Source: Dictyoglomus thermophilum H-6-12
Lineage (GTDB): Bacteria > Dictyoglomota > Dictyoglomia > Dictyoglomales > Dictyoglomaceae
DNA length: 64,000 nt
NCBI RefSeq assembly: GCF_000020965.1
Contig: NC_011297.1
Span: 434,001 to 498,000, forward strand
Direction of reading: 5' to 3'
The position numbers and the translations under genes were made by a program. Under the pieces are notes generated by a model, which was not told where the DNA came from, made no database searches, and saw only the letters and a program-made list of their open reading frames with translations. Positions 2,132-18,145 of the stretch are shown here, piece after piece (position 1 is the first letter of the stretch; every line of letters begins with the position of its first letter).

Positions 2132-2727
2132 AAAAGAGTAAAAGATTATTTGATTTTATGCTTAGTTTATTAGGTTTGTTCATTACAATACCAATTTTTC
2201 TAGTTGTAAGTTTACTCATCAAATTAGAGGATAATGGCCCTATATTTTATAAGCAAAAGAGGGTGGGGTATAAGGGGAAGGAGTTTCACATATGGAAATT
2301 TAGGACAATGGTTGTAAATGCAGATAGTTTAGGGAGGCTTATAACAGTTGGTAAAGATCCGAGAATAACTAAAGTGGGTTTTTGGTTAAGAAAATTTAGG
2401 ATCGATGAAATACCTCAATTAATAAATGTGTTGAAAGGAGAAATGAGTTTGGTTGGACCAAGGCCTGAGGTTCCCAAGTATTTAAAATTTTACGATGAAG
2501 AAATGCGGAGAATACTAGAGTATGTTCCAGGGATGACAGATCCGACATCTTTAAATTTTTTGGATGAAAGCGAAGTTTTAGCCAAAGCTGAAGATCCAGA
2601 GGAAAAATATATAAAAGAAATTTTACCTTTAAAAGTCAAACAAAGTTTAAAATACTTGGAAAGATCTAATTTATGGACTGATTTTTTAGTAATATTAAAA
2701 ACAATATTCAATTTGATAAAGATTTGA
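2128..2727 (+). CDS. Polyprenyl-phosphate sugar-1-phosphate transferase (WcaJ/PglC-like)
   Basis: This 199-residue monotopic phosphoglycosyl transferase starts polysaccharide or glycan assembly by loading a sugar phosphate onto undecaprenyl phosphate. One N-terminal hydrophobic helix spans about residues 10-32. It is followed by the family block with DNGPIFYKQKRVG and HIWKFRTM, then FRIDEIPQL and LVGPRPEVP. These are the hallmark motifs of the bacterial sugar transferase family. The short single-helix form resembles PglC rather than long WbaP enzymes. It overlaps the upstream aminotransferase by 4 bp, so an amino-sugar substrate made by that enzyme is plausible (inference). Confidence 0.92.
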   Translation: MKKSKRLFDFMLSLLGLFITIPIFLVVSLLIKLEDNGPIFYKQKRVGYKGKEFHIWKFRTMVVNADSLGRLITVGKDPRITKVGFWLRKFRIDEIPQLINVLKGEMSLVGPRPEVPKYLKFYDEEMRRILEYVPGMTDPTSLNFLDESEVLAKAEDPEEKYIKEILPLKVKQSLKYLERSNLWTDFLVILKTIFNLIKI

Positions 2728-2840
2728 TTAAGGATATTTCAAAGCGTACTCTTGCCTTGCCTTTTCACAATAATTTGAGTGAGGCAGAGGTTGAAGAGGT
2801 AGTGAGTGTTCTGGAGAAAGTTGTAAGTAAATTTGAATAA
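2700..2840 (+). pseudogene. C-terminal remnant of a second DegT-family aminotransferase
   Basis: Starting inside the end of the sugar transferase and in another frame, about 46 codons read toward a TAA at 2838-2840. They include SKRTLALPFHNNLSEAEVEE, which matches the typical C-terminal end of DegT/WecE-type sugar aminotransferases. There is no start codon or ribosome-binding site, and the rest of the gene is missing. I read this as the tail of a lost aminotransferase gene, left when the cluster was rearranged. The intact aminotransferase at 974-2131 ends differently, so this is not a simple partial copy of it. Confidence 0.6.
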
Positions 2841-3264
2841 GAAATTGATCTTATTATAAAGAAATTTTTCACAGACTTTAGATCTGAGTTTTTAAGATAA
2901 ATTTTTTAAGGCTTTCTCACACAAAAGAAACTTTACTGTAAAAGTATAGTCTTTAAGTTGAGGGTTTATGAATACTTTTTATCTTGTGAACTTTATATAG
3001 AATTCTCAATTGAGATGAAATTTTTAAGGCTTATGGCTACCACTTATATAACTCATATGACACATGAATATTCAAAATAATCTAAAAGCTAATAAAAAGG
3101 AATTTGGAAATTAGAAAGACCCTTCTTATGGAAGATGTTATTGGTATGAAGTTCAAGGTCGTTTGGGTTGGAAAATTTGATATGTAAAAGAGGTAGGTAT
3201 GTTTAGTTTCTCTATCATGCAAAAAGTTGAAAGGTCGAAAGCAACTAATAAGTGATGGGTGATG
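2841..3264. other. Gene-poor stretch with traces of decayed coding sequence
   Basis: There is no intact gene here. From about 3132 to 3258 on the + strand one frame reads YGRCYWYEVQGRLGWKI, then a TGA, then YVKEVGMFSFSIMQKVERSK before a TAA. The dense aromatic and charged coding-like composition suggests a short gene broken by stops. I do not recognise the family. The rest is AT-rich and shows no RNA gene, repeat array or insertion sequence that I can see. Confidence 0.4.
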
Positions 3265-3273
3265 TGGTATAAT
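3265..3273 (+). promoter_or_regulatory. Extended -10 promoter for the TumE-like module
   Basis: TGGTATAAT is a perfect extended -10 element (TG-N-TATAAT). It lies 19 bp before the ATG at 3293 and no good -35 is visible. A closely similar element, TATAATTTAAGTT then AGGTGA, recurs at 3950-3968. Confidence 0.6.
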
Positions 3274-3292
3274 TTAAGTTGAGGTGAGAAAA

Positions 3293-3583
3293 ATGAGTAT
3301 AGCTGAAGATCTCATAAAGAAGATAGCTAATGATTTAGGTATTGATTTTGAGGAGATTACTAAAGAAAGTCTGAAAGCTTTCTTGCAGGAGAAAAGGAGG
3401 AAGATGAAGATAGATATTTTAGGAATTCTTGATAGATATAAAGTTTCTTCTTCAAGAGAACTTGAGGAAAAGATTTTTAAAGGAGAAATTTCAGAGCATC
3501 CTGCATGGGAGGACTTAATTCTTTTAGAAAATCTTGAGGAGACTATTAAAATAATTGAAGAAGATATCAGAAGTATATCTTAG
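3293..3583 (+). CDS. Small helical protein, putative antitoxin partner of TumE-like toxin
   Basis: This acidic, mostly helical protein has 96 residues from ATG 3293, which sits 6 bp after a GAGGTG ribosome-binding site. An upstream in-frame GTG at 3284 lies inside that site and is less likely. The middle reads ILDRYKVSSSRELEEKIFKG followed by EHPAWEDLI, a pattern I associate with small proteins encoded just upstream of DUF6516/TumE-type toxins. The next reading frame, which is TumE-like, begins inside its last codons. A role as antitoxin is inferred from this pairing. The toxin frame is broken, so the antitoxin may now be a relic under little selection. Confidence 0.55.
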   Translation: MSIAEDLIKKIANDLGIDFEEITKESLKAFLQEKRRKMKIDILGILDRYKVSSSRELEEKIFKGEISEHPAWEDLILLENLEETIKIIEEDIRSIS

Positions 3584-3937
3584 TTTATTAGATACCGTAT
3601 TAAAGGAATATAATTCGATTGTTGAATCTGGAGAGGTAATCTATACTCAGAGCCAAGAACCATGGAAGTTGCGTTTATACTTTTATGATGGAAGTTTCTT
3701 GGATATTTTTTATTCAAAGTCAGGAAAATATTGTTGAATCTGGAGAGGAGGTTTATTGATAGTTCCATATATAGGCACGATAATGCTCCTCATAAGAATT
3801 GGAAGAAAGTAAAAACTTTTCCAAAGCATTTTCATATGGGGACAGAAGAAAATGTAGTTGAGAGCTACATTTCTAATAATCCTGAGGAGGCAATAAGAGA
3901 GTTCCTAAATTTTATAAGAGATAAAATACTTGAATGA
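3555..3937 (+). pseudogene. TumE/DUF6516-like toxin gene broken by one missing base
   Basis: Two adjacent frames together encode one TumE-type protein. The first (3555-3737) ends LRLYFYDGSFLDIFYSKSGK then Y-C-stop. The second (from about 3737) continues N-L-E-R-R-F-I-D-S-S then IYRHDNAPH and TFPKHFHMGTEENVVES, the family's conserved C-terminal block. Adding one G at about 3737 would turn TGT-TGA into TGT-TGG-AAT and restore a continuous protein. This is either a true frameshift or a sequence error. The TTG at 3555 overlaps the upstream gene, so the pair would be co-translated. The function as an RNA-targeting toxin is known only at family level. Confidence 0.6.
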
Positions 3938-3949
3938 TAAGTGATATAC

Positions 3950-4049
3950 TATAATTTAAGTTAAGGTGAAAAAGGTAGATGAAAAGAAGTTATCTGAATA
4001 TTACTCTGATTTAGAGCTTAAGGACATTTGGAGTGAACTTATAAAATAA
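3950..4049 (+). other. Second copy of promoter element with a 27-codon open frame
   Basis: TATAATTTAAGTT at 3950-3962, followed by AAGGTG, repeats the promoter and leader found at 3268. The GTG at 3966 opens a frame of 27 codons (VKKVDEKKLSEYYSDLELKD, then IWSELIK) ending in TAA at 4047-4049. It is too short to assign a function. It may be the stump of a second antitoxin gene whose body has been deleted. Confidence 0.35.
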
Positions 4050-4373
4050 TTTTTAGATACCTAAACTGTTAAAATTTTCAGTTGGTGTTGGAGTAGATAA
4101 AAAGAAGCTTATAGCCACCACCATGGTATGGCAAGTATTTTGGAGTGAAGGTATATATCACCTATCCCACCCCATAATCTCCTCGAGCATAAGAGCCAAA
4201 ATATCTTAATTATTTATCCAATTTTTAATTCTTCTATCCTCTTATGATCCGCCTTATTAGTAGTTTTTTACTTGTTTTTGTAGTTATTTATGCCTTTTAT
4301 TGTGATAGATTTCTTATTTTTGAATATCTTTTAGCTTATAATAATACTTAAGATTTTGTATTACTAAAGAGGA
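4050..4373. other. Intergenic stretch around the MNT fragment
   Basis: Apart from the MNT relic at 4161-4260 this region has no open frame that I can support. A TATAAT at 4337-4342 may have served the AbrB-like relic that follows. The rest is T-rich sequence without recognisable structure. Confidence 0.4.
4161..4260 (-). pseudogene. Fragment of an MNT-type nucleotidyltransferase gene
   Basis: Positions 4169-4200 are identical over 32 bp to 5898-5929 inside the intact MNT gene. That segment encodes FGSYARGDYGV on the - strand, the nucleotidyltransferase active-site loop. Similarity continues on both sides with substitutions and an internal deletion: the pieces near 4215-4255 align with 5970-6018. 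No open frame survives. This is the remains of a second copy of the gene at 5693-6055. Confidence 0.65.
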
Positions 4374-4648
4374 GGTAAGAAAAAAATTCCTAAGATTACG
4401 GATAAAACAGTTCTAACCCAAAAATCACAAATTACCATACCCCAAAAGATAAGGGAATTTTTAAATCTTAAGCCTGGAGATCAAGTTGAGTTTGTTATAG
4501 AGAATGATATAGTAAAACTTGTTCCTATACATTCAAAGTTAGATGAGTGTTTTGGTAGAGTAAAACCTAAAAGGAAGCTAGAATATTATAAAAAATAAGA
4601 GAAGCTATAGAGAAAGAAGTTGCTAAGGAGGTTTTAAAAGAGGTCTAA
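4374..4648 (+). pseudogene. AbrB/MazE-fold antitoxin relic (VapB-type)
   Basis: The frame from about 4374 reads KKIPKITDKTVLTQKSQITI, then PQKIREFLNLKPGDQVEFV, a classic SpoVT/AbrB swapped-hairpin DNA-binding domain. A good ribosome-binding site (GAGGAGG) lies at 4369-4375, but no ATG, GTG or TTG follows in frame, so the start codon appears lost. The frame stops at 4596-4598. One extra A in the run at 4590-4595 would join it to IREAIEKEVAKEVLKEV, which ends at 4648, four bases before the PIN gene. It therefore carries two lesions. Its partner would be the PIN relic at 4652. Confidence 0.6.
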
Positions 4649-4651
4649 AGT

Positions 4652-4849
4652 ATGAAATTTTTGGATAACCTATTGTTGCAATATTTCACTAAAGATGATA
4701 GGGTTTTAACGAGTCCTTTAGTTATTTTTGAGACAATTTTTATGCTTCAAAGTTATTATAAACTTCCCAGAAAAGAGATTAGAGATTTACTTATTCCTAT
4801 ATTAAATCTTAGAGGCTTAAAATTGGATTATAAGGATATATTTGAGTAG
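4652..4849 (+). pseudogene. PIN-domain toxin relic (VapC-type), internally deleted and truncated
   Basis: 65 codons begin MKFLDNLLLQYFTKDD, close to the usual VapC start, but one residue of the D-x-N motif is missing. They then jump directly to VLTSPLVIFETIFMLQSYYK. A segment of roughly 20-25 residues that normally separates these blocks is absent. The frame ends after LKLDYKDIFE, well before the C-terminal acidic residues of the PIN active site. The protein could not form a complete metal-binding nuclease site. The AbrB-like relic upstream was its antitoxin (inference from order and family). Confidence 0.65.
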
Positions 4850-4941
4850 GAAGCACTTATGGAAAGGATTCCAAGTAAGAGTTGAAGTAGTAGGAGTTTT
4901 AGAAAGAGTGGTAAGAGTAAGATAATAGGGGGTGAGAGTTA

Positions 4942-5574
4942 GTGAGAATAGGAAAATTGTTTTTATTAGGATTTGTTTTGTTTTTAGTCGTAGTTAATAT
5001 TTCTGTATCTTTATCTCTCAGCTCTTTTGTGGATAGAAAACCTGTTTTTACAGAGAAAGAAGAAATTATAAATGGTCTTAAATTGTTAGATACCAAGGAT
5101 AGAATGTTAAGGAAATTAGGAAAACCTAAAAATACAAAGAAAGAGTATTGGGGAGCATATGGAGATGAGGTTGAATATTGCTATTATGAATGGGGATATG
5201 TTTTGCTTTCTCCTCCTCCAGCTCCTCATAAGGATTTGGAAAGGCCTATAGAAGAAATAGAAATCACAGGTAAAAAGATTGTTGGACCGAGAGGGATAAG
5301 AATAGGAGAAGATTATAAAAGAGTAATTGAAAGTTTTAGGTGTGATGTTAAAGAGATTTATGAAAGGGCTTTTCATAATGTAAAATTATATGAAGTTAAG
5401 AAAAACAATGAAGAGAAAATGTTAGGTTTTGTTATATATAATGATAAAGGAGAGATAAATGAAATTTGGTATAAGGTACTAAATGAGAAGTATTCTTCCG
5501 AATTTGGACTCCGTTTTGAATTGATGAAAAAGAAGGTAGTTAAAATATTTGCATATTATTCTCCAGGAGATTAG
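4942..5574 (+). CDS. Uncharacterised exported protein
   Basis: 210 residues from GTG 4942 (ribosome-binding site GGGGGTGAG), with an N-terminal hydrophobic stretch at about 5-25 that should act as a signal peptide or anchor. I do not recognise the family. The mature part has two similar-looking sub-blocks around DTKDRMLRKLGKPKN and GPRGIRIGEDYKRVIESFR. The second resembles the G-I-x-I-G-x-x-x-x-x-V motif of small periplasmic OmlA/SmpA-like folds, though this is a loose similarity. It lies between the decaying toxin-antitoxin island and the HEPN/MNT pair and has no obvious partner. No conserved catalytic motif is visible. Confidence 0.6.
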   Translation: MRIGKLFLLGFVLFLVVVNISVSLSLSSFVDRKPVFTEKEEIINGLKLLDTKDRMLRKLGKPKNTKKEYWGAYGDEVEYCYYEWGYVLLSPPPAPHKDLERPIEEIEITGKKIVGPRGIRIGEDYKRVIESFRCDVKEIYERAFHNVKLYEVKKNNEEKMLGFVIYNDKGEINEIWYKVLNEKYSSEFGLRFELMKKKVVKIFAYYSPGD

Positions 5575-5692
5575 ATGGGTAATAAGTAACGAGTCTTAAA
5601 AAAGAGGTAAAGGTTTTTGTTAATTTTTAATAGAAAAGAGTTAATGAAAAGAAAACCTACTTTTAATTTGCTTAGTCCTAAGTTTTAATATA

Positions 5693-6055
5693 TTAAGCCG
5701 TAAACAACCAAATAACCTCTTTGCTTACTTTTTTGTAAAAAGAGGAATTTTCTTTTTCAAGTTTTTGCCATTCTTCTATGGTATATATTAAGAGGTCTAC
5801 TGGTACAGAAAAATTTGTAGTATCCCATTCTATACCTCTCTTTTCAAAAGGAAGGGAGGAACTTTCTAAAATTATGATTATATCCAGGTCGCTTCCTACC
5901 CCATAATCTCCTCGAGCATAAGAGCCAAAGTATCCTATTTTTATTACTCCTCTTTTTTCCTTAACTACTTTATCTATCCAGTTTTCCAATTCTTCTTCGA
6001 TCTTTTTACGGTCTGCCCATTTTAGAACTGACGAATTCAAGGATCTCACTGGCAT
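5693..6055 (-). CDS. MNT-domain minimal nucleotidyltransferase (antitoxin of HEPN/MNT pair)
   Basis: A 120-residue protein with the pol-beta nucleotidyltransferase loop GYFGSYARGDYGVGSDLDI; the G-S and D-x-D elements of the active site are intact. MNT proteins of this kind neutralise HEPN ribonucleases, in studied cases by adding nucleotides to a HEPN tyrosine. It overlaps the end of the HEPN gene by 50 bp, so the two are co-translated. The start at 6055 gives the full frame. A start inside the overlap is possible because family homology begins around DRKKIEEEL. A broken relative of this gene survives at 4161-4260. Confidence 0.8.
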   Translation of the reverse strand: MPVRSLNSSVLKWADRKKIEEELENWIDKVVKEKRGVIKIGYFGSYARGDYGVGSDLDIIIILESSSLPFEKRGIEWDTTNFSVPVDLLIYTIEEWQKLEKENSSFYKKVSKEVIWLFTA

Positions 6056-6398
6056 ATTCTATTGCCTCCTTACTTTGCAATGGTCCATAGTGTTCAAAGG
6101 GTGCTCCTTCGGGATGTCCATTAGGATATCTTGTAGGTATATAGAAATTGTCTAATACTTTTGCTTTTTCTATTAGCTCTTGGGGAACAGAGATTTCTTC
6201 AGGAAGTTCTGAGAGAAGTTTTGCAATTACATGTCCCCATGCCTCTTGATTTAAAAATAGATGTAATGCTTTTACTGCTTTTTCCGCAGATTGCTGTGCA
6301 GAAAAACATGCCCATTCATGCCTTCCTGCTTTTTGTGAATCTATCGCTTGTTCTAAATCTCTTTTAGCCTGTTTTAGCCAATCAAAAGCTCTATTCAT
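6006..6398 (-). CDS. HEPN-domain protein (toxin-like partner of MNT protein)
   Basis: 130 residues from the ATG at 6398. Upstream in-frame codons lie within or before the promoter. The block CFSAQQSAEKAVKALHLFL is characteristic of HEPN domains of the PF05168 type, and YIPTRYPNGHPEGAPFEHY is the usual C-terminal part. Paired with the overlapping MNT gene it forms a two-gene HEPN/MNT module. The canonical R-x4-6-H ribonuclease motif is not clear in this subtype, so ribonuclease activity is uncertain. The -10 element ends 6 bp before the ATG with no ribosome-binding site between, which suggests a leaderless mRNA. Confidence 0.8.
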   Translation of the reverse strand: MNRAFDWLKQAKRDLEQAIDSQKAGRHEWACFSAQQSAEKAVKALHLFLNQEAWGHVIAKLLSELPEEISVPQELIEKAKVLDNFYIPTRYPNGHPEGAPFEHYGPLQSKEAIEYASEILEFVSSKMGRP

Positions 6399-6404
6399 GG
6401 TTAT

Positions 6405-6413
6405 ATTATAACA
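6405..6413 (-). promoter_or_regulatory. Extended -10 of the HEPN/MNT operon
   Basis: On the - strand the sequence reads TGTTATAAT, a perfect extended -10. Transcription would start about 7 bp downstream, at or next to the ATG at 6398, so the message would be leaderless. Confidence 0.6.
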
Positions 6414-6522
6414 TGGGTTGACTTTAGAGTGTGTTTGGCTTAAGATGAAGAACATCAAAAATTGTAAAAAGAGCCTTATCCATCTTTTCTTTAGATTTTT
6501 GTCAACTATTTCTCAGGGTATG

Positions 6523-6531
6523 TGCTAAAAT
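6523..6531 (+). promoter_or_regulatory. Extended -10 for the SLBB export genes
   Basis: TGCTAAAAT is an extended -10 31 bp before the first SLBB gene. A TTGTCA at 6499-6504 lies 21 bp upstream, which is longer than ideal. Confidence 0.4.
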
Positions 6532-6562
6532 TAAAAGAGAGGCTTTTTGGGAGGTAAATTTA

Positions 6563-8017
6563 ATGAATAAGTTGAGAATTATTTTGGCTCTTGTTTTATT
6601 TCTTTTTTCTTGTGCTTTTGCACAAACTACTCAGGGGCAAACTACTACTCAGAGCCAAACTACTGTAACGGGGGAAATATATTTTGGAAGAATTGCAGAA
6701 CCTGATAAGTATATACTTGGCGTTGGAGATGTAATAAGAATTTATTTAATTCAGCAAGCGGGAGAGCCTATTTCTTTTGATGCTGTAGTTTCACCTACGG
6801 GAGCTGTTAGTTTGCCTCTTGTAGGATCGCTAAAAATTGCTGGTTTAACTCTCTCTGAAGCCACAAAAGAAATTTCGAGGCGTCTTATTAGGTTTTATCC
6901 TAAAAGCACTATATTCATAGATCTCGTTTATCCTCGCAAGTTTAAAATATATGTTTTAGGTGAAGTAGAAAAGGCAGGAACTCAATTAATTTCTGCACTA
7001 AGTACCTTAGATGATGCTATTAAGCTTGCAGGATTAAAACCCTCTGCCTCTTTACGTCGTATTCAGATAAAAAGAGGAAATAAAACTATAGAGGTAGATT
7101 ATTTAAAATTTTTGAAATATGGAGATACCTCTCAAAATCCATATGTAGAAGAGGGAGACATTATATATGTACCTCTTATGGGGAAGAGTGTTAAGGTGCT
7201 TGGTGAAGTAAAAGATCCTGGAATATATGAGATAAAGGAAGGAGAAAAGTTAAAAGATGTACTTGATATGGCTGGAGGCCTTACAGAAAAAGCAGATCTT
7301 TTCGGAAGCTATATAGAAAGACAGATTGATGGGAATAAGCAGATAATAAGTATAGATCTTCTTAAGTTAATTTATCAGAAAGATGACAAAGAAAACTTAG
7401 AGCTTAAAGATGGGGATTCTATAGTTATACCTTTAAAAGTGGATAAAGTTTATGTAATAGGATACGTGGCTAAGCCTCAGGTTTTTACTATTGTATCTGG
7501 AGAATTTAAAAATGAGGTTGGAGGACAGAGTGCTATAGGAGAAAGTGAGATAAAAGAGGGGGCAAAAATAAGTGAGCTTATCAGTAAGGCTGGAGGAGTG
7601 CTTCCTAATGGAAGTAGAAGAAGAGTTCAAGTTATAAGAGATGGTCAAGTAATAAAAGAAGTTGATTTATTTAAAGTACTTGTAAAAGGAGATGTGGAGG
7701 AGGAAAAAGTTAAATTAGTTCCTGGGGATATAGTGTATGTGCCATTGGCAGAGAAGACTGTAAAGGTCCTTGGTGAGGTGAAAGATCCAGGGATATATGA
7801 AATTAAGCCTGGAGAGAGAATAAAAGATGTGATAGAGATGGCTGGAGGGTTTACAGTAAGGGCAGATCTTAAGAATATAACGGTAGAAAGATATATTACT
7901 GAGAAAAAAGAAGTAATACAACTTGATTTAACAAAACTTTATAAAGAAGGAGATGAAAGTGTAAATATAATTCTTGAGGATGGTGATATAATTAACATTC
8001 CTATAAAGACTGAGTAG
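6563..8017 (+). CDS. Polysaccharide export protein, Wza/BexD N-domain plus SLBB repeats
   Basis: A 484-residue exported protein. The signal peptide spans about 1-21 (hydrophobic core, then CAFA-Q). A polysaccharide export (Wza-like) domain covers about 45-125 and begins YILGVGDVIRIYL. It is followed by about four SLBB beta-grasp repeats, recognised by KVLGEVKDPGIYEIK-type openings near 133, 213, 295 and 402. The protein would form part of the periplasmic and outer-membrane conduit for polysaccharide. The C-terminus lacks a Wza-type amphipathic helix. ATG 6563 follows GGGAGG. It sits 11 bp before a longer paralog and near the glycosyltransferase cluster, so both probably export the polymer made by that cluster. 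Confidence 0.88.
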   Translation: MNKLRIILALVLFLFSCAFAQTTQGQTTTQSQTTVTGEIYFGRIAEPDKYILGVGDVIRIYLIQQAGEPISFDAVVSPTGAVSLPLVGSLKIAGLTLSEATKEISRRLIRFYPKSTIFIDLVYPRKFKIYVLGEVEKAGTQLISALSTLDDAIKLAGLKPSASLRRIQIKRGNKTIEVDYLKFLKYGDTSQNPYVEEGDIIYVPLMGKSVKVLGEVKDPGIYEIKEGEKLKDVLDMAGGLTEKADLFGSYIERQIDGNKQIISIDLLKLIYQKDDKENLELKDGDSIVIPLKVDKVYVIGYVAKPQVFTIVSGEFKNEVGGQSAIGESEIKEGAKISELISKAGGVLPNGSRRRVQVIRDGQVIKEVDLFKVLVKGDVEEEKVKLVPGDIVYVPLAEKTVKVLGEVKDPGIYEIKPGERIKDVIEMAGGFTVRADLKNITVERYITEKKEVIQLDLTKLYKEGDESVNIILEDGDIINIPIKTE

Positions 8018-8028
8018 GTGGTGAAAAA

Positions 8029-9792
8029 ATGAAAAGAGCCATTTTAGTGTTAATACTACTTATTGCTTCTTTCTCTTTAATATATGCTCAGGAAGCTCCT
8101 TCTTTAGGAGAAGTTTATTCTGGGAAGGTTATTGAACCTGATAAGTACGTCTTAGGGCCAGGAGATGTTTTAAGGATATTTGTAGTGCAAGAAAATAATA
8201 AAACAGAAAGTTTTACTGTTTCAGTGTCTCCCACAGGATTTATATTTCTTCCTCTTGTAGGTAGTATTAAAGTTCTTAATCTTACCCTTTCCGATGCTAC
8301 AAAGGAGATTTCAAGACAGCTTGTTAGATTTTATCCCAGGTCAAATATTTATGTGGATTTGATTAATGTGAAAAAAGTAAATATTTTGATTACTGGGGAG
8401 GTTGCAAATCCTGGAAATTACAAAGTTTCTGCCTTAAGTACCTTAGATGATGTATTAAAAATAGCTGGAGGATTAAAGGCTTCTGCTTCCTATAGGAGAA
8501 TATTTATAAAGAGGGGAGAAAAAGTATTAGAATTAGATTATCTAAAATTTTTGAAATATGGAGATACCTCTCAGAATCCATATGTAGAAGAAGGAGATTT
8601 TATATACGTACCTCTTATGGGCGATAGAGTAAAGATACTTGGGAGAGTGAAAAGCCCCGGAGAATACGAAGTAAAGGATGGGGAGAGATTGAAAGATGTG
8701 CTTGATATGGCTGGGGGGCTTGCAATAAATGCTTCCTTATTTGATGCTACTCTTGATAGAGTAGATGGTACTAGAATTTATCTTGACCTTTATGGATTAT
8801 ATTATGGAGATAAAGAAAGAAAAGATAAGGCAAATATTGAATTAAAAGATGGAGATAGTATTACTGTGCTTACAGAGACGAAGAGGGTATATGTGCTTGG
8901 TTTTGTAGCAAATCCAGGACCAATTCAACTTGTAGAGGAGATAAAAACAGGTCCTCAGGGGGAGGAGATTGGAGGAGTAACTCAGGCAGTAGTTGGGGCA
9001 AAAATAAGCGAGCTTATCAAAGAAGCAGGGGGAGTTCTTCCTAATGGAAGTACGAGAAGAATTGAGCTTAGACGTGGTGGAAAGGAAAGCGATAAGATCA
9101 TTATAGATCTATATAGAGTGCTTGTACTTGGAGAGGAAAGTGAAGAGGATATAAAAGTAAATCCAGGAGATGTCATATATGTACCTCCTGTATTGAAGAG
9201 TGTAAAGATATTGGGACAGGTAAGAAATCCGGGGGTTTATGAAATTGTAGAGGGAGATAGGATAAGAGAGATACTTTTAAAAGCAGGAGGGCTTACAGAA
9301 AAAGCTGCAAGAGAAGGTGGAGAGCTTGTTAGGTTGGAAAACGGGAAAAAATTAACTTATAAGTTTAACGTAGTAAATGCTTTGCAAGGTATAGAAAAAG
9401 ATAATTTAGAGTTAAAAGATGGAGATACATTGTATATACCTGAATTAAGAAGATTGGTATATGTTCTTGGACAGGTAAATAATCCTGCTGCTTATGAGTA
9501 CAGAGAGGGTAGGAAACTTACGGAATATATCAGTATGGCAGGTGGATTTAAAGATAGGGCAGATCTTTCAAGGATTGCTATTGTAAGGGAAATAAATGGC
9601 GAGACAAAAGTTATACCTATAAATGTTAATGAGATAGTGAATAAAGGAAGAAGTGATCTTGACATTACAATAGAAGAAAATGACATAATTTTTGTTCCTG
9701 AAGTTTTTATAAAAGGATGGCAGGATATTGTGAACATATTGAGTGGAATATTCTATGTGTACTCACTTCTTAAGCCTATTGTAGGATGGTAA
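8029..9792 (+). CDS. Polysaccharide export protein, longer SLBB paralog
   Basis: 587 residues with a signal peptide (about 1-20, ending IYA-Q). The Wza-like export domain YVLGPGDVLRIFVVQ covers about 40-120, and about five SLBB repeats follow. The N-terminal 220 residues closely match the upstream gene, including SALSTLDD and LKFLKYGDTSQNPYVEEGD, so this is a tandem duplication with one added repeat. Unlike its neighbour it ends in a short hydrophobic segment (IVNILSGIFYVYSLLKPIVG), which could insert into a membrane as the terminal helix of Wza-type channels does. ATG follows GGTGG at close spacing. The two proteins may form a mixed or two-tier channel (inference). Confidence 0.87.
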   Translation: MKRAILVLILLIASFSLIYAQEAPSLGEVYSGKVIEPDKYVLGPGDVLRIFVVQENNKTESFTVSVSPTGFIFLPLVGSIKVLNLTLSDATKEISRQLVRFYPRSNIYVDLINVKKVNILITGEVANPGNYKVSALSTLDDVLKIAGGLKASASYRRIFIKRGEKVLELDYLKFLKYGDTSQNPYVEEGDFIYVPLMGDRVKILGRVKSPGEYEVKDGERLKDVLDMAGGLAINASLFDATLDRVDGTRIYLDLYGLYYGDKERKDKANIELKDGDSITVLTETKRVYVLGFVANPGPIQLVEEIKTGPQGEEIGGVTQAVVGAKISELIKEAGGVLPNGSTRRIELRRGGKESDKIIIDLYRVLVLGEESEEDIKVNPGDVIYVPPVLKSVKILGQVRNPGVYEIVEGDRIREILLKAGGLTEKAAREGGELVRLENGKKLTYKFNVVNALQGIEKDNLELKDGDTLYIPELRRLVYVLGQVNNPAAYEYREGRKLTEYISMAGGFKDRADLSRIAIVREINGETKVIPINVNEIVNKGRSDLDITIEENDIIFVPEVFIKGWQDIVNILSGIFYVYSLLKPIVGW

Positions 9793-11343: not shown

Positions 11344-11371
11344 AAAGCCTCCCTCATATGAGGGAGGCTTT
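11344..11371 (-). terminator. Intrinsic terminator of the M6 protease/PorV operon
   Basis: A perfect 28-bp palindrome with 14-bp arms (AAAGCCTCCCTCAT and its complement). On the - strand it is followed by a run of T. It lies 13 bp after the PorV-like stop. Confidence 0.9.
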
Positions 11372-11383
11372 GTGAAAGATTTC

Positions 11384-12256
11384 TTAGAATTTTAATGAGA
11401 GGCTGAATAAGTGTTGATTTGATAGATCTTTTGTATAGAGGAATGCATAGTCGAATTCTATATTGTTTATGTTTACCCCAAGGCCAAAACTTATAGTATT
11501 TTTCTCCCCGTTATATCCTGTTCTAATAAATACTGGAGTTTTTGGTATTTGGGTTTCTAAACCCAAATGAAGCCTCTGGTAGAAGTATATTTTGTCGTAA
11601 AGGCTGAAATCAAAGGCAAAGTTCAAAGGAAATTCTCCTAAGGTTAGTTTGTAGGAGACTCCTATAACTAAATCTTGTCTTCCTGCAGTTTCTACTGTAC
11701 CTGTGTTCCACTTGATATAACTTATAGGATTGTACCATACTGCTCCAATTTTTAAGTTTGGAATTATCTCATAGATTGTTCCTATATCGACACCTAATCC
11801 TTCAGCTTCGCCTGTATCTAATTTAGCTATATATGAGTGAAGAGATGTTCCAATGCTTAATTTTTCATTAATTTTTTTAGCTAAGGTGAGATTAAGGGTA
11901 GCATCATAATATGGGAATAATAGTTCATCGGGATTTGTTACTCCTGTTGCTTGAAATCCTAAACCTACATTAAAGACTCCAAAGTTTATTGCTCCTCCTA
12001 CAAATTCTACCCTTGTGAAACTTTGAGGAAGTTGTGTATGGCTAAAACCCACCATTGCTTTTTCTTCAAAGGTTAATCCAGCAGGATTATAAACTAAGCC
12101 AGAGAGTCCTTCGGATATGGCAGTAAAGGCCTCTCCCATTCCTGCTGATCTTGCATTGAATATCATGGGGGAGAATACTCCCCCAGTATCGCTGGCAAAG
12201 GTTATAGACAGAAGAAATATTATCGTTAAAAATCCTACTATTAAACTCTTTTTCAT
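11384..12256 (-). CDS. PorV/PorQ-like outer-membrane beta-barrel
   Basis: A 290-residue outer-membrane protein. The signal peptide is about 1-21 (ending TFA-S). The block NARSAGMGEAFTAISEGLSG, then LVYNPAGL, is the family signature of PorV/PorQ (UPF0164, FadL-related). Alternating beta strands fill the rest, and the protein ends in Phe (FSLSLKF), the usual beta-barrel assembly signal. In type IX secretion systems PorV carries cargo proteins at the cell surface by binding their C-terminal domain. Here the gene lies 31 bp after, and in the same orientation as, a secreted protease with such a tail. No other type IX components are in the window, so that role is an inference. Confidence 0.78.
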   Translation of the reverse strand: MKKSLIVGFLTIIFLLSITFASDTGGVFSPMIFNARSAGMGEAFTAISEGLSGLVYNPAGLTFEEKAMVGFSHTQLPQSFTRVEFVGGAINFGVFNVGLGFQATGVTNPDELLFPYYDATLNLTLAKKINEKLSIGTSLHSYIAKLDTGEAEGLGVDIGTIYEIIPNLKIGAVWYNPISYIKWNTGTVETAGRQDLVIGVSYKLTLGEFPLNFAFDFSLYDKIYFYQRLHLGLETQIPKTPVFIRTGYNGEKNTISFGLGVNINNIEFDYAFLYTKDLSNQHLFSLSLKF

Positions 12257-12287
12257 TTTAGTCTCCTCCTATTTTGAATTCTTTTAA

Positions 12288-15200
12288 TTACTTCAGTATT
12301 CCTATAAATCTGTTTATTCTTGCTTCTCCTTCTGAGGATGTTGCTACAAGTTGGAATACATAAAGTCCGTTCTTAAGTGTTTCGCCCTTTAAGTTGATTC
12401 CTTCCCATATTATGCTATAGTCTCCTGCTGGTAGATATCCAAGGTCTTTTTCGTAAAGTTTTACTCCAGCAAGGCTATATACTATGAATTTTACAGAAGC
12501 ATCCTGGGTTATTGTAAAGTAAATCTCTGCAAATTCTTTATTGGGATTAAAGGTTTTTGAGAATTTTGTTACATTTAGGAAGGATAATGGGACTCCATAA
12601 GGAATGGTAATGTAGTAGGTTTTTGTAGTAATGTTGTTTAGTTCATCCTTTGCAGAGATTTCTACCATATATCTTCCTGGATTTACCTTTCCATTTTCAT
12701 CCTTTCCATCCCATGCGAAATTATATGTTCCATTATCAACTCTTGTATTTTCTACAAGAGTCCTTATTAAATCTTTCTTTTGATTATTTAAAGTACTATA
12801 GATTTTTACTGTAATATATGCGTATCCTACATTGTCTTGTACTGTTAAATTAATATTGCAGTTTTCGTTATTATTAGGATTAAAACTTGAAGTGACGGTA
12901 GCAGTTATATCTGGAGAGGAGAACAATGCATATTTTACTCTTCCTAAGACCTCACCACTTATATCAGGAGAAAGGCCTTCAAGTCCAAAGGCAAAATATA
13001 CTACTCCATAATGTTTTTCAGGATCCGCATAGAAAAGGCCTGCTGTTCCAGAAGATGCAATTTCCTTGTTTATAACTATCTGCGATTTTTGCTCCTTTAT
13101 CTTTTCTGGGAGTTTGATCTCTATAGGTATAGGAGAAGTTCCAGAAGGATTATAGACTAAGATTGGTCTTGCTCCTTCCAGTGGATCTATCTCATCAGGA
13201 TATGCTTGATTTTTGAGAGATCCTTCTGCATTCAAAGTGAAGGATAAATCTGCAAATTCGCTCGTGCTTGTGCCTTTTACAGAATATATTCCTACATTAT
13301 CTTGTATAAAGTTGGCTCTCAAGTATGTATTGTAGAAAGTACTACTTATATATCCTGCTGAATATCCCCAGCCTAAATCTTGGCTTGAGATGAAAAGTTT
13401 TCCACCACTATCAAGATAATTTATTATCTCGTTTTGGACTGATGGATCATAGATTGCTCCCCAATCTCCACCCCATATTACCCAGTTAAAATTACTCATA
13501 AAGGATGCATACGGTACAGCATTGTCATAATATACGTCTACGATGAAATATGTCTCACCTATATCTTGTAAGGCTTTTTCAAAATATGGAGCTATTCCGT
13601 ATTCTCCACCATCATCGGCAACAAGTAGAGCTTCAAAAGAAGTTGGAGTTGTGAAGGATATAGTTGTCCAAGATGATGCACCACTTTCGTTTTCTGCTCT
13701 TACTCTTGCAAAGTAAGTTTTGCCAGGATATAAGGTTTCATCAAGAGTTGGCCTGTACTCTGTTTTTTCTGTAGTTACTTCTATCACTATATTGTTAAAA
13801 TTACTATCTGTAGCAACTTGTAATCTATAGTTGGTAGCATAAGGAATGGCTTCCCATTTAAATAATGGTCTTATGGTGAGAGGGTTATCTCCTGTCCATG
13901 CTAAATGCTTTATAAAGGAAGTAGATTGTGGCGCATTTTGAGTTTTTACATAAATATTACATATAATGTTTTCTCCTGAAAGTTGTATATTTCTAACAGC
14001 AACGCTGGTTGGAATCTCTCCATAGGCTTTGCTGTTTGGAGTACTATTTTCATCAAAAGTTGTATTATTGGTAGATCCTGGATATGGATCACCACTGTCT
14101 CCACTATTAACTTTTTTTTCTAAATCCCATTTTCTATCTGCTTGCTCTAAGGCTACTAAATAATGTCTTGATGGATCAAGGCCTGGATACCATTCATAAT
14201 CATTTTGGAAGCTTCGCATATTTTCGTCTACATGATAAATAAGAAGTCCTGACCCCCTCAAATATTCATCAAATCCTATTTTTTGCCTATTCTCAATCAA
14301 AAAATACTCAGGACCTTCTACTCCATCGGTCCAGAGCTTATATACCACAGGATTTGTCTCCACAGGTGGTATGCTTACATTACTTAAATCCTCCTTAGGA
14401 ACGATAGGAGTTACCCACCCAAGCTGGATTTTACACCAAGCATCAAAGTGAGAAGGTCCTCCACCTAAGCTATATCCTCCAGGTCCTGCCGGGCCATTCC
14501 AAGATCCTCCTGCCATAAGGCTCCATCTACCAAGTCCTAAGGAGGAGTAGTCTCTATCGTAAAGATCAGGAAGATGTCCAAAGGAATGTCCCATTTCATG
14601 GACAAATACACCTACCGTTTGAGGAACAATTACAGGATTTCCTTGAGAATCGTAATCTTCCATATATTCTGGCTCAATGGAATATCTTATGGGCACTTTT
14701 TGACCATCAATGGTGACATATATAGTAGAGGCGTGAGACCAGATATCATTGTGATCTTCTGTCCATTCTGCTCCTTGTCCTGAGTGAATAACAAATATAA
14801 CGTCGTAATTTCTTAAATCATACCCTTGATTTACCGCATTTTGAAGAACTTCCTTTACTAAGACAAACACTCCCCCATTAAATCCATAGTTATTGTCATT
14901 TATATAGTATCCATATGTATACGTTGCAGTATACCATGGTAAAACTGTTGCTGTAATGTCAAATTGATTATAGGAGTTTTCTTTATAAAATTCTCTTACG
15001 CTACCTACATTATATGGATTTATAGTAGTCCAATCTGCACCTATGCTATTAAAGAGTATGTCAAAGTAGTTTGATGGTATTACGTTTTCAGGTTGTCTTG
15101 GCTTGTCCGTAAACTCTACTGGTATTACAATTGCTTTGCCTGTGCCTTGAGCTCTTTCAATGGTTCCATAAATTTTTATTCCTTGAGGAATGTTAGATGG

Positions 15201-15365
15201 TGAAACTTCAGGAAGCTTTGGAAGTTTGACCTTTTTTTCAAGGAGTTTTTCGTGGGGTGGCATAATGTGAACTTTTGTTAATGGTAATACTTGGGCAAAG
15301 GAAGTGTTTAATATGAGAGCTAAAACAAGAAAGAGGCTAAGAATTAGTACAATTTTTTTACCCAT
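12288..15365 (-). CDS. Secreted M6-family metalloprotease with sorting-tail-like C-terminus
   Basis: 1025 residues. Signal peptide about 1-24 (NTSFA-Q). The M6 (immune inhibitor A-like) peptidase domain spans about 75-470. It has HEMGH at 256-260 (zinc ligands H256 and H260, catalytic E257) and GRWSLMAGGSWNG as the Met-turn region. A fibronectin III-like module lies at about 480-575 and a glutamine-amidotransferase-like alpha/beta module at about 580-790. FlgD-type Ig domains follow, the last of which ends GLYVFQLVATSSEGEARINR like type IX secretion tails. One residue more than usual separates the HExxHxxG motif from the following Asp. Its likely role is digesting extracellular protein. Confidence 0.87.
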   Translation of the reverse strand: MGKKIVLILSLFLVLALILNTSFAQVLPLTKVHIMPPHEKLLEKKVKLPKLPEVSPSNIPQGIKIYGTIERAQGTGKAIVIPVEFTDKPRQPENVIPSNYFDILFNSIGADWTTINPYNVGSVREFYKENSYNQFDITATVLPWYTATYTYGYYINDNNYGFNGGVFVLVKEVLQNAVNQGYDLRNYDVIFVIHSGQGAEWTEDHNDIWSHASTIYVTIDGQKVPIRYSIEPEYMEDYDSQGNPVIVPQTVGVFVHEMGHSFGHLPDLYDRDYSSLGLGRWSLMAGGSWNGPAGPGGYSLGGGPSHFDAWCKIQLGWVTPIVPKEDLSNVSIPPVETNPVVYKLWTDGVEGPEYFLIENRQKIGFDEYLRGSGLLIYHVDENMRSFQNDYEWYPGLDPSRHYLVALEQADRKWDLEKKVNSGDSGDPYPGSTNNTTFDENSTPNSKAYGEIPTSVAVRNIQLSGENIICNIYVKTQNAPQSTSFIKHLAWTGDNPLTIRPLFKWEAIPYATNYRLQVATDSNFNNIVIEVTTEKTEYRPTLDETLYPGKTYFARVRAENESGASSWTTISFTTPTSFEALLVADDGGEYGIAPYFEKALQDIGETYFIVDVYYDNAVPYASFMSNFNWVIWGGDWGAIYDPSVQNEIINYLDSGGKLFISSQDLGWGYSAGYISSTFYNTYLRANFIQDNVGIYSVKGTSTSEFADLSFTLNAEGSLKNQAYPDEIDPLEGARPILVYNPSGTSPIPIEIKLPEKIKEQKSQIVINKEIASSGTAGLFYADPEKHYGVVYFAFGLEGLSPDISGEVLGRVKYALFSSPDITATVTSSFNPNNNENCNINLTVQDNVGYAYITVKIYSTLNNQKKDLIRTLVENTRVDNGTYNFAWDGKDENGKVNPGRYMVEISAKDELNNITTKTYYITIPYGVPLSFLNVTKFSKTFNPNKEFAEIYFTITQDASVKFIVYSLAGVKLYEKDLGYLPAGDYSIIWEGINLKGETLKNGLYVFQLVATSSEGEARINRFIGILK

Positions 15366-15447: not shown

Positions 15448-16035
15448 ATGGAGATATTAAGATATTTTTTAATATTAATTATTTTTTTAATTCTTATTCA
15501 AGTTGCTTTTGGAAATATGATACCAGTAGTTGAAAACAGGAGTATAGTAATTGCAAAGGTTAAGGCAATTGTTCATAAGGAGTTTCCATTTTCAGAGATT
15601 GTGGTTGAGGTTGTGAGAAGTGAGAGTGTAGAAGGTTTTAAAAATTTTGCAAAAGTTGGGGATATAATACCTCTCTATCCTTTGTCATTAAATGCTAATT
15701 TAGAAAATGTTGATGATTTTAGGAAAAAAGTTCTTTATACCTGCTACTTTTTAAAACCTGGAGATTTGGTAAAGGCAGAGATTGAATTTGTGGGAGATGA
15801 AGCAAAAAGGGGTTGGGTTATAAGAGATATTGAAAGAGTTATTGAGGTAAATGAGGGATTATTGAAAGATGTAATTTATAGTTTTTTGAAGGCAAAGGGT
15901 TTTATAAAAGACAAGGAGGAGTTGAAGTATGAGGTAGTTAAAGATGGTGAAAATTATAGGGTGGAAATAATATTAGACAATAAAAAACTCACTATAATTC
16001 TTGATAAAAGTTATGTTATTTTAAATTATTTTTAG
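15448..16035 (+). CDS. Uncharacterised exported protein
   Basis: 195 residues with an N-terminal signal peptide (about 1-22, AFG-N). I do not recognise the family. The first half (VENRSIVIAKVKAIVHKEFP, then IVVEVVRSESVEGF) has the beta-rich look of an OB/TIMP-like domain in which a soluble factor is buffered, but this is only an impression. The second half (about 135-195) is a small alpha/beta unit ending in YEVVKDGENYRVEIILDNKK. It is divergent from the protease operon, and its last 20 bp overlap the convergent DUF89 gene. Confidence 0.55.
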   Translation: MEILRYFLILIIFLILIQVAFGNMIPVVENRSIVIAKVKAIVHKEFPFSEIVVEVVRSESVEGFKNFAKVGDIIPLYPLSLNANLENVDDFRKKVLYTCYFLKPGDLVKAEIEFVGDEAKRGWVIRDIERVIEVNEGLLKDVIYSFLKAKGFIKDKEELKYEVVKDGENYRVEIILDNKKLTIILDKSYVILNYF

Positions 16036-16945: not shown

Positions 16946-18145
16946 TTAATTTAGGCTTTTTCTAAGATGATGATATAATTCTAAGGACTTTTGAAAGAGA
17001 TTGCTGAAATCTTCAAAATTTCTTATAGAAGATTGGGATTCTCTTAAGTTTCCATGGACAGCAGAATTTCTTATTTTCTCAAGGTTATTAAAGGTCTCTC
17101 TTGTCCATTCCTCGGTGAGGACTTTGCTATATACTTCCCTCGCTTTTTCTCTTCTATTTATTATGTTAGATAGATCTCTATAGCCTGCCTTCTTCAGAAT
17201 AATTATGGTTAGAGCTTCATAAAGTAAGATAAGGCTTTTCAAATATTGCTTCTTTTTGAAAAAGAATTTTGCTCTCTCCACCATTCGGTCTTCTAAGTAT
17301 CTTTCTCTGCAAAGAGGTATAAGGTCTTCTACCAAGGCTTTTGCAGGTACTTTTTTGTGTTTTTCTTTTATACTTTCTAATTCCTCTATTATTTTTTCTA
17401 ATTCCTCTCTTGGCCTTTCGTTCATCTCGATGGAGAAATATACATCTTCTCTTCTGTTTAAGCCTAAATTTTTTAGGAGCTCAGGGAAGTAGCCAGAATT
17501 TTTATAGAGCTCAAAGGCTGTGGAGAGTTGAAAAATTTCATTTATATGATCAATTTCTAAAACAGGAGCGTTATCTTGGCTCATTTCGAGAGCACCGTAG
17601 TATATTTTGAGCTCTTTTATGTTCTTAAAGTTTTTTACGTACATAATGGAGAAGCTTAAAATTAAAGGTAAATATCTGTAACCATGGGTTATATCCAGGA
17701 TAATTTTTAAGTCGTCATTTTCAGGTAAATTTTCCAATAGAAATTCTGAGAAAAATTTGTAGTCAAGAGGATCAATTAGGATGAGTTTTATACCTGGAAT
17801 CTCCGATGATAAGGCCTCTTCCCAATTTTTCAAAAGATCTCCTTTAATACCTATATTTTCTGCCTCATATATCTCATAAGCGAGGTCTTGAAATTTAGAC
17901 ATTTTTTGTTCATCTAAAGCGTAGATTATTTCAGACCAAGAAGAGGTAGAGGTTCCAAATATATACCAGTAATTAATCTTTTCTTTTTGGGAGATATATT
18001 TCCATAAGGCAGATCCGAAAAATCCAGTTTCAAAAATTTCACCAGTTTTAAATCTATAACTAGTCCTTTTATATCCTTGCGATATATTTTCCAATACTTT
18101 TCCTCTTCCAATTAAGGATAACAAAATGTTTTTTACTTCCCCCAT
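16946..18145 (-). CDS. csx1: Csx1/TM1812-family CARF-HEPN ribonuclease (orphan CRISPR accessory)
   Basis: 399 residues. The N-terminal Rossmann-like CARF domain starts at about 5 (ILLSLIGRGK) and carries LDITHGYRYLP at 150-160, the D-x-T-H-G motif of the Csx1/Csx2 (TM1812) family. The C-terminal helical HEPN domain contains R359-N-S-A-V-H364, matching the R-x4-6-H ribonuclease motif. Family members bind cyclic oligoadenylate made by type III CRISPR complexes and then cut RNA. No cas gene and no repeat array is visible in the window, so it stands alone between a phosphatase and the folate operon. Both key motifs are intact, which argues that it still works. Confidence 0.88.
   Translation of the reverse strand: MGEVKNILLSLIGRGKVLENISQGYKRTSYRFKTGEIFETGFFGSALWKYISQKEKINYWYIFGTSTSSWSEIIYALDEQKMSKFQDLAYEIYEAENIGIKGDLLKNWEEALSSEIPGIKLILIDPLDYKFFSEFLLENLPENDDLKIILDITHGYRYLPLILSFSIMYVKNFKNIKELKIYYGALEMSQDNAPVLEIDHINEIFQLSTAFELYKNSGYFPELLKNLGLNRREDVYFSIEMNERPREELEKIIEELESIKEKHKKVPAKALVEDLIPLCRERYLEDRMVERAKFFFKKKQYLKSLILLYEALTIIILKKAGYRDLSNIINRREKAREVYSKVLTEEWTRETFNNLEKIRNSAVHGNLRESQSSIRNFEDFSNLFQKSLELYHHLRKSLN

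Follow-up and report, generated by a model that had tools for sequence, protein, structure and literature searches.

The 64,000-nt window analysed here, which lies in the closed genome of Dictyoglomus thermophilum H-6-12 (G000:C1:434001-498000; 1,959,987 bases), encodes an M6-family metalloprotease with a type IX-like C-terminal tail and, directly downstream on the same strand, an outer-membrane barrel of the PorV family. Such tails and barrels do occur together: the pairing is strictly conserved and reaches further than the original prediction, made from the window sequence, could have shown. On present evidence, the view that the pair is a type IX system is not supported. We judge the chances to be about even that it is instead a stand-alone anchoring module of two genes, with the tail docking on its own PorV-type barrel.

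The two open reading frames are followed by an intrinsic terminator, AAAGCCTCCCTC-ATAT-GAGGGAGGCTTT and then TTT, which is located directly past the barrel stop codon and whose 12-bp stem is the sole long stem within the stretch (Table 1). Compared with the other and closest complete genome (G003), the ratio of non-synonymous to synonymous substitution rates is 0.09 for the protease and 0.19 for the barrel, indicating that both genes are under purifying selection. The original prediction of same-strand genes 31 bp apart with a common terminator therefore stands, as does its description of a PorV-like barrel beside a tailed metalloprotease, which agrees with a full-length NF033709 match, a TIGR03296 match over the cut-off and PF13860.

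The protease comprises a signal peptide, an M6 domain (residues 81-378), an immunoglobulin (Ig)/fn3-like middle part and two FlgD_ig copies (PF13860, E 5.1e-16, two stretches). The M6 assignment is given by TIGR03296 (E 1.6e-50; 172.6 bits against a cut-off of 110.8) and PF05547 (2e-20), and the enzyme looks catalytically intact, judged by its HEMGH motif, which we take to be the zinc-binding HExxH of M6 proteases. It thus resembles the M6 (immune inhibitor A-type) metalloproteases in its catalytic domain, while it differs from them in adding a C-terminal domain (CTD) tail and an adjacent PorV barrel.

In the AlphaFold2 model of the 110-residue C-terminus of the protease (pLDDT 93), seven strands build an Ig-like β-sandwich at the extreme end of the chain. 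This region had been proposed to be a FlgD/Por-type beta domain, as is confirmed by PF13860 and by the position of the string singled out at the time, GLYVFQLVATSSEGEARINR, which occupies the last two strands and is followed by FIGILK (chain end RINRFIGILK). The closest solved fold found by Foldseek is that of PorU (6za2), followed by FlgD, and by sequence profile the tail reaches PorU at 1e-11, PorZ at 7e-10 and FlgD at 7e-9. A glycine in the β3-β4 loop is essential in the type A CTD (PMC11285876). In the tail, this loop glycine is G52, between strands 41-48 and 54-63; it is kept in 37 of 39 aligned tails, and the motif VYSLAGVKL matches IYDFTGRLV of PorU. A basic residue near the C-terminus is present in 36/39 aligned tails (Lys in 28, Arg in 8), and the position of the conserved lysine in strand β7 of type A CTDs is an arginine in the window tail. 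The type IX tail models TIGR04183 and PF18962 are not among the matches of the window tail.

The barrel, which carries a signal peptide, is closest to PorV, with a modelled 14-strand fold of the FadL type. It matches the PorV/PorQ family model NF033709 over its full length (84.6 bits, E 9.2e-24; curated cut-off 90), and the FadL family (PF03349) gives only 16.7 bits. The AlphaFold2 model (pLDDT 90) shows an N-terminal plug and 14 strands, as in the PorV/PorQ and UPF0164 barrels, and Foldseek ranks two PorV structures first (8gl6_F and 6h3i_F; TM 0.70-0.71), then CymD, TbuX, TodX and FadL. When a profile of the barrel family was compared with the PDB, PorV was matched at 2.2e-42 and the next family, TodX/FadL, at 5e-10; phmmer with the single barrel sequence found no match in the PDB, so that PorV is reached by the family profile only.

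Across the genome, PF13860 matches only two proteins, and NF033709 gives two strong and two weak partial matches. Each of the two PF13860 proteins lies directly upstream of a strong PorV barrel (2/2 pairs; the chance of such pairing is ~1e-7 by a rough estimate), and tails and clear PorV barrels occur in this genome as pairs only. The second pair (pair B, the window pair being pair A) consists of a 1044-residue Ig-repeat protein with a tail of the same kind, a 23-bp gap and a 291-residue PorV-family barrel. The tail of pair B matches PF13860 and the PorU model (1e-18 over residues 901-1042) and falls just below the cut-offs of TIGR04183 (22.1 vs 23) and PF18962 (23.9 vs 27). Weak PorV-like barrels encoded elsewhere in the genome (L012:2515-3771, 418 residues; L013:2155-3012, 285 residues) have no tailed neighbour. 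In the seven Dictyoglomota genomes covered, all 11 FlgD_ig proteins are encoded immediately upstream of a PorV barrel. Pair A is present in 7/7 of these genomes and pair B is intact in four, being missing as a whole from the complete genome G003. In G001, a metagenome assembly that can give a hint only, both pair B genes are broken: at L053:8520-9932, a frame-shifted remnant of the Ig protein runs into a PorV gene without a start.

A scan with the barrel profile returned 349 relatives; the top 80 are distributed among Zixibacteria, Calditrichota, Cloacimonadota, Elusimicrobia, Margulisbacteria and relatives, Atribacteria, Spirochaetia and others. We defined the upstream neighbour as a gene on the same strand within 400 bp of the barrel and called tails by a fixed pattern, which on inspection by eye missed ~11 further tails and gave one apparently false match. 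The tail was found in 34/63 upstream neighbours of related barrels vs 48/536 other genes of the same stretches (p 2e-16), and without Dictyoglomota in 30/58 vs 48/536 (p 3e-14), in stretches that were selected for containing a barrel and that come in many cases from genomes with a real type IX system. The front domains of the partners vary (subtilase, PQQ propeller, FG-GAP, PEGA or nothing known), indicating that the tail is the element in common. It is very improbable that the pair is an operon coincidence, in which a FadL-type substrate channel is co-transcribed with a protease whose tail is an ordinary structural FlgD_ig domain: FadL-type channels are indeed the next-best fold matches of the barrel, FlgD_ig has a generic Ig fold, and FlgD is the top NCBIfam model of the window tail, but the 11/11 pairing across the phylum, which involves partner proteins of two unrelated kinds, the positional enrichment in the wider set and the large distance between the PorV and TodX/FadL profile scores all argue against it.

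In other phyla, single open reading frames appear to fuse a PorV-type barrel to FlgD_ig (L073, L074, L087, L101, L121 and L123), and those checked with Pfam (L074, L087 and L121) contain a C-terminal OmpA domain. OmpA domains bind peptidoglycan; hence the Ig domains of these fusions should be periplasmic. With their OmpA ends, the checked fusions speak for the periplasmic side, and we rejected them as proof of surface docking.

We searched for the translocon, sortase and motor of a type IX system. SprA (TIGR04189) gave no full match in the window's genome, where 19.6 bits were reached over one module only, while the same model gave 990 bits in Ignavibacterium, exceeded its cut-off in 11/32 genomes and detected divergent SprAs at 47-98 bits; an SprA of such divergence should therefore have shown up in Dictyoglomus. 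No C25 peptidase (PorU-type, PF01364) was found in 7/7 Dictyoglomota, whereas six control genomes matched at up to 317 bits. The PorM and PorL models (TIGR03517 and TIGR03513) gave nothing over the cut-off in any genome, SprA-positive controls included, and are hence uninformative. A search of the literature found no account of type IX components from Dictyoglomus. A type IX-like surface-export route, as originally proposed, thus finds no support in the SprA and C25 searches, which were negative while the control genomes matched. That proposal had also turned on whether the genome holds another tailed protein and an SprA-like translocon: there is one more tailed protein, with its own barrel, and the translocon search yielded a shared module only. 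What remains of the proposed likeness to PorV and type IX systems is the adjacency, the PorV barrel, the PorU-type CTD and the linkage, which is strict in the phylum and enriched elsewhere.

The SprA-like module, ~90 residues long, sits in barrel-like Dictyoglomus proteins of 800-830 residues. By profile comparison, these proteins match SprA with 47.7% probability over 87 columns, while divergent SprAs of other phyla match Ignavibacterium SprA with 100% over 979 columns. We rejected the SprA-module proteins as true SprA because the homology is restricted to one module. At L011 in the window's genome, two tandem outer-membrane-like paralogues of ~810 residues (2403-4817 and 4865-7303) adjoin metG and have no Pfam or NCBIfam match, and a separate family of ~1100-1170 residues (L187-L190) carries the module alongside true SprA in FCB genomes. 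The SprA search also returned divergent SprA-like proteins beyond the FCB group (L154-L160; 1478-2131 residues where most complete, best stretch 72-98 bits), hosted by metagenome assemblies of Goldbacteria (G017), Spirochaetia (G021), Elusimicrobia (G025, G028 and G011), FCPU426 (G027) and an uncultured bacterium (G012). No C25 peptidase was found in those searched for it (G011, G017, G021, G025 and G028).

In a rival explanation, a reduced and unrecognised type IX-like export route would use these ~810-residue barrels as a minimal translocon, the PorV-type barrels to collect the tails and p195, a divergently encoded secreted protein, as an accessory. What keeps this rival alive is gene linkage. 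In the window's genus, the p195 gene is the neighbour of the protease gene; in the sister genus, it lies directly upstream of an SprA-module gene. In G005, the SprA-module, p195, protease and PorV genes form a single cluster (metG, the SprA-module gene and p195, then the protease and PorV genes divergently). In addition, SprA profiles align the ~90-residue segment, and the module proteins have ends like those of outer-membrane proteins. We nevertheless regard this route as unlikely, in view of the one-module homology, the occurrence of the same module in a ~1100-residue family next to true SprA and the lack of linkage between pair B and the p195 or SprA-module genes.

For the anchoring module, we propose that the protease would be exported by Sec and that its C-terminal Ig-like domain would dock on the dedicated barrel, by which it would be held non-covalently at the outer membrane, most likely on the cell surface. 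The barrel, encoded next in the shared operon, would be made in roughly the same quantity, and pair B may act likewise for its ~1044-residue Ig-repeat protein. The better analogy would thus be an anchoring or attachment pair, such as PorU-PorV or SprB-SprF, rather than an export apparatus. In favour of this account are the pairing in the genome and the phylum, the PorV and PorU folds, the kept loop glycine and basic residue, the positional enrichment of the tail in the wider set, and the breakage of both pair B genes in G001 and their joint loss from G003. In the attachment complex of Bacteroidota, PorU and PorZ work together with PorV and their CTD is retained (PMC11285876, PMC9143113). The window pair resembles PorU-PorV in combining a protease with an uncleaved CTD and a PorV barrel, with PorU and PorV as the best solved folds; it differs in that the protease is M6 and not C25, no SprA was found, the barrel is shorter with short loops, and one other tailed protein makes no cargo set for a sortase. 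For this last reason, we set aside the idea that the M6 protease sorts other cargo in the manner of PorU. A second precedent is type B CTD cargo, for which the cognate SprF/PorP-like barrel, encoded directly downstream and usually one per cargo, binds the cargo, is needed for its secretion and has been proposed as its surface anchor (PMC12618676, PMC9143113). Here, however, the barrel is of the PorV family and the tail is type A/FlgD_ig-like, and type B secretion requires SprA, for which the search in this genome was negative.

Several observations weigh against this anchoring account. The window tail alone prefers FlgD over PorU single-sequence models (27.2 vs 17.6 bits; FlgD is the best NCBIfam model), so that the resemblance to PorU comes from the fold, the family profile and pair B, and no type IX tail model attains its cut-off in the window's genome. 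Both genomic PorV matches, although full-length, are below the NF033709 cut-off (84.6 and 62 vs 90 bits), and the PorV equivalog model is far below its own (26.3 vs 250). The extracellular loops of the modelled barrel are short (2-11 residues), while Flavobacterium PorV has 402 residues, with a long insertion between the equivalents of barrel strands 9 and 10, and its loops do the binding jointly with SprA (PMC10994853). The short loops thus weaken a literal copy of the PorV binding mode. Finally, surface exposure is an assumption because no translocon was identified.

The same lack of a translocon in the SprA searches favours periplasmic docking. The barrel would then serve as an outer-membrane tether for a protease and an Ig protein that both stay in the periplasm, with no crossing of the membrane. 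The fusions in other phyla, ordered as PorV barrel, one or two FlgD_ig and OmpA, point in this direction. We consider this arrangement rather doubtful, as in the nearest systems known from experiment the tail sits on PorV, at its extracellular loops, or on PorP/SprF at the surface (PMC10994853, PMC9143113), and a surface role would better suit an M6 protease that is secreted and an Ig-repeat protein of large size.

Published accounts restrict the type IX system to Bacteroidota or the FCB group (PMC4793230, PMC11205867) and describe CTD tails and the type IX machinery as co-occurring (PMC11285876). A phylum with strict tail-barrel pairs in which no SprA or PorU was found would separate recognition and anchoring from translocation. 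With two cargos and two barrels, this small system would allow a direct test of whether PorV binding alone suffices for outer-membrane placement, and the pairs may also inform the sequence of steps by which the type IX system was put together. A bolder proposal, to which we assign a low probability, is that a CTD tail together with a PorV-type barrel makes up an outer-membrane secretion-and-anchoring unit that would work without SprA or PorU, either by itself with BAM or in concert with the ~810-residue SprA-module barrel, as a minimal relative from which type IX could have arisen.

Table 1 Features of the two-gene unit and its neighbour (window coordinates).
Feature	Position	Strand	Basis
M6-family metalloprotease precursor, 1025 aa	12288..15365	(-)	open reading frame; TIGR03296, PF05547, PF13860
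HEMGH putative zinc-binding motif within VHEMGHSFGHLPDLYD	14586..14600	(-)	read from sequence
First FlgD_ig copy, ~residues 858-911	12633..12794	(-)	NF005176 stretch 858-911, PF13860
C-terminal FlgD_ig / type IX-like domain, residues 947-1011	12333..12527	(-)	PF13860, AlphaFold2, Foldseek
Intergenic gap, protease stop to barrel start, 31 bp	12257..12287	(-)	open reading frame coordinates
PorV-family outer-membrane barrel, 290 aa	11384..12256	(-)	open reading frame; NF033709, AlphaFold2, Foldseek, PDB profile search
Intrinsic terminator closing the two-gene unit	11344..11371	(-)	12-pair stem, 7 G-C, loop ATAT, T-run
p195, divergent secreted protein, 195 aa, family unknown	15448..16035	(+)	no Pfam or NCBIfam match

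Elsewhere in the window, a CRISPR-associated TIGR02221 protein (DxTHG motif, Csx1/CARF-like; match over the cut-off) is encoded at 16946-18145 (-), and the stretch 6563-9792 (+) holds tandem genes for two polysaccharide-export proteins, one with four and one with five SLBB repeats.

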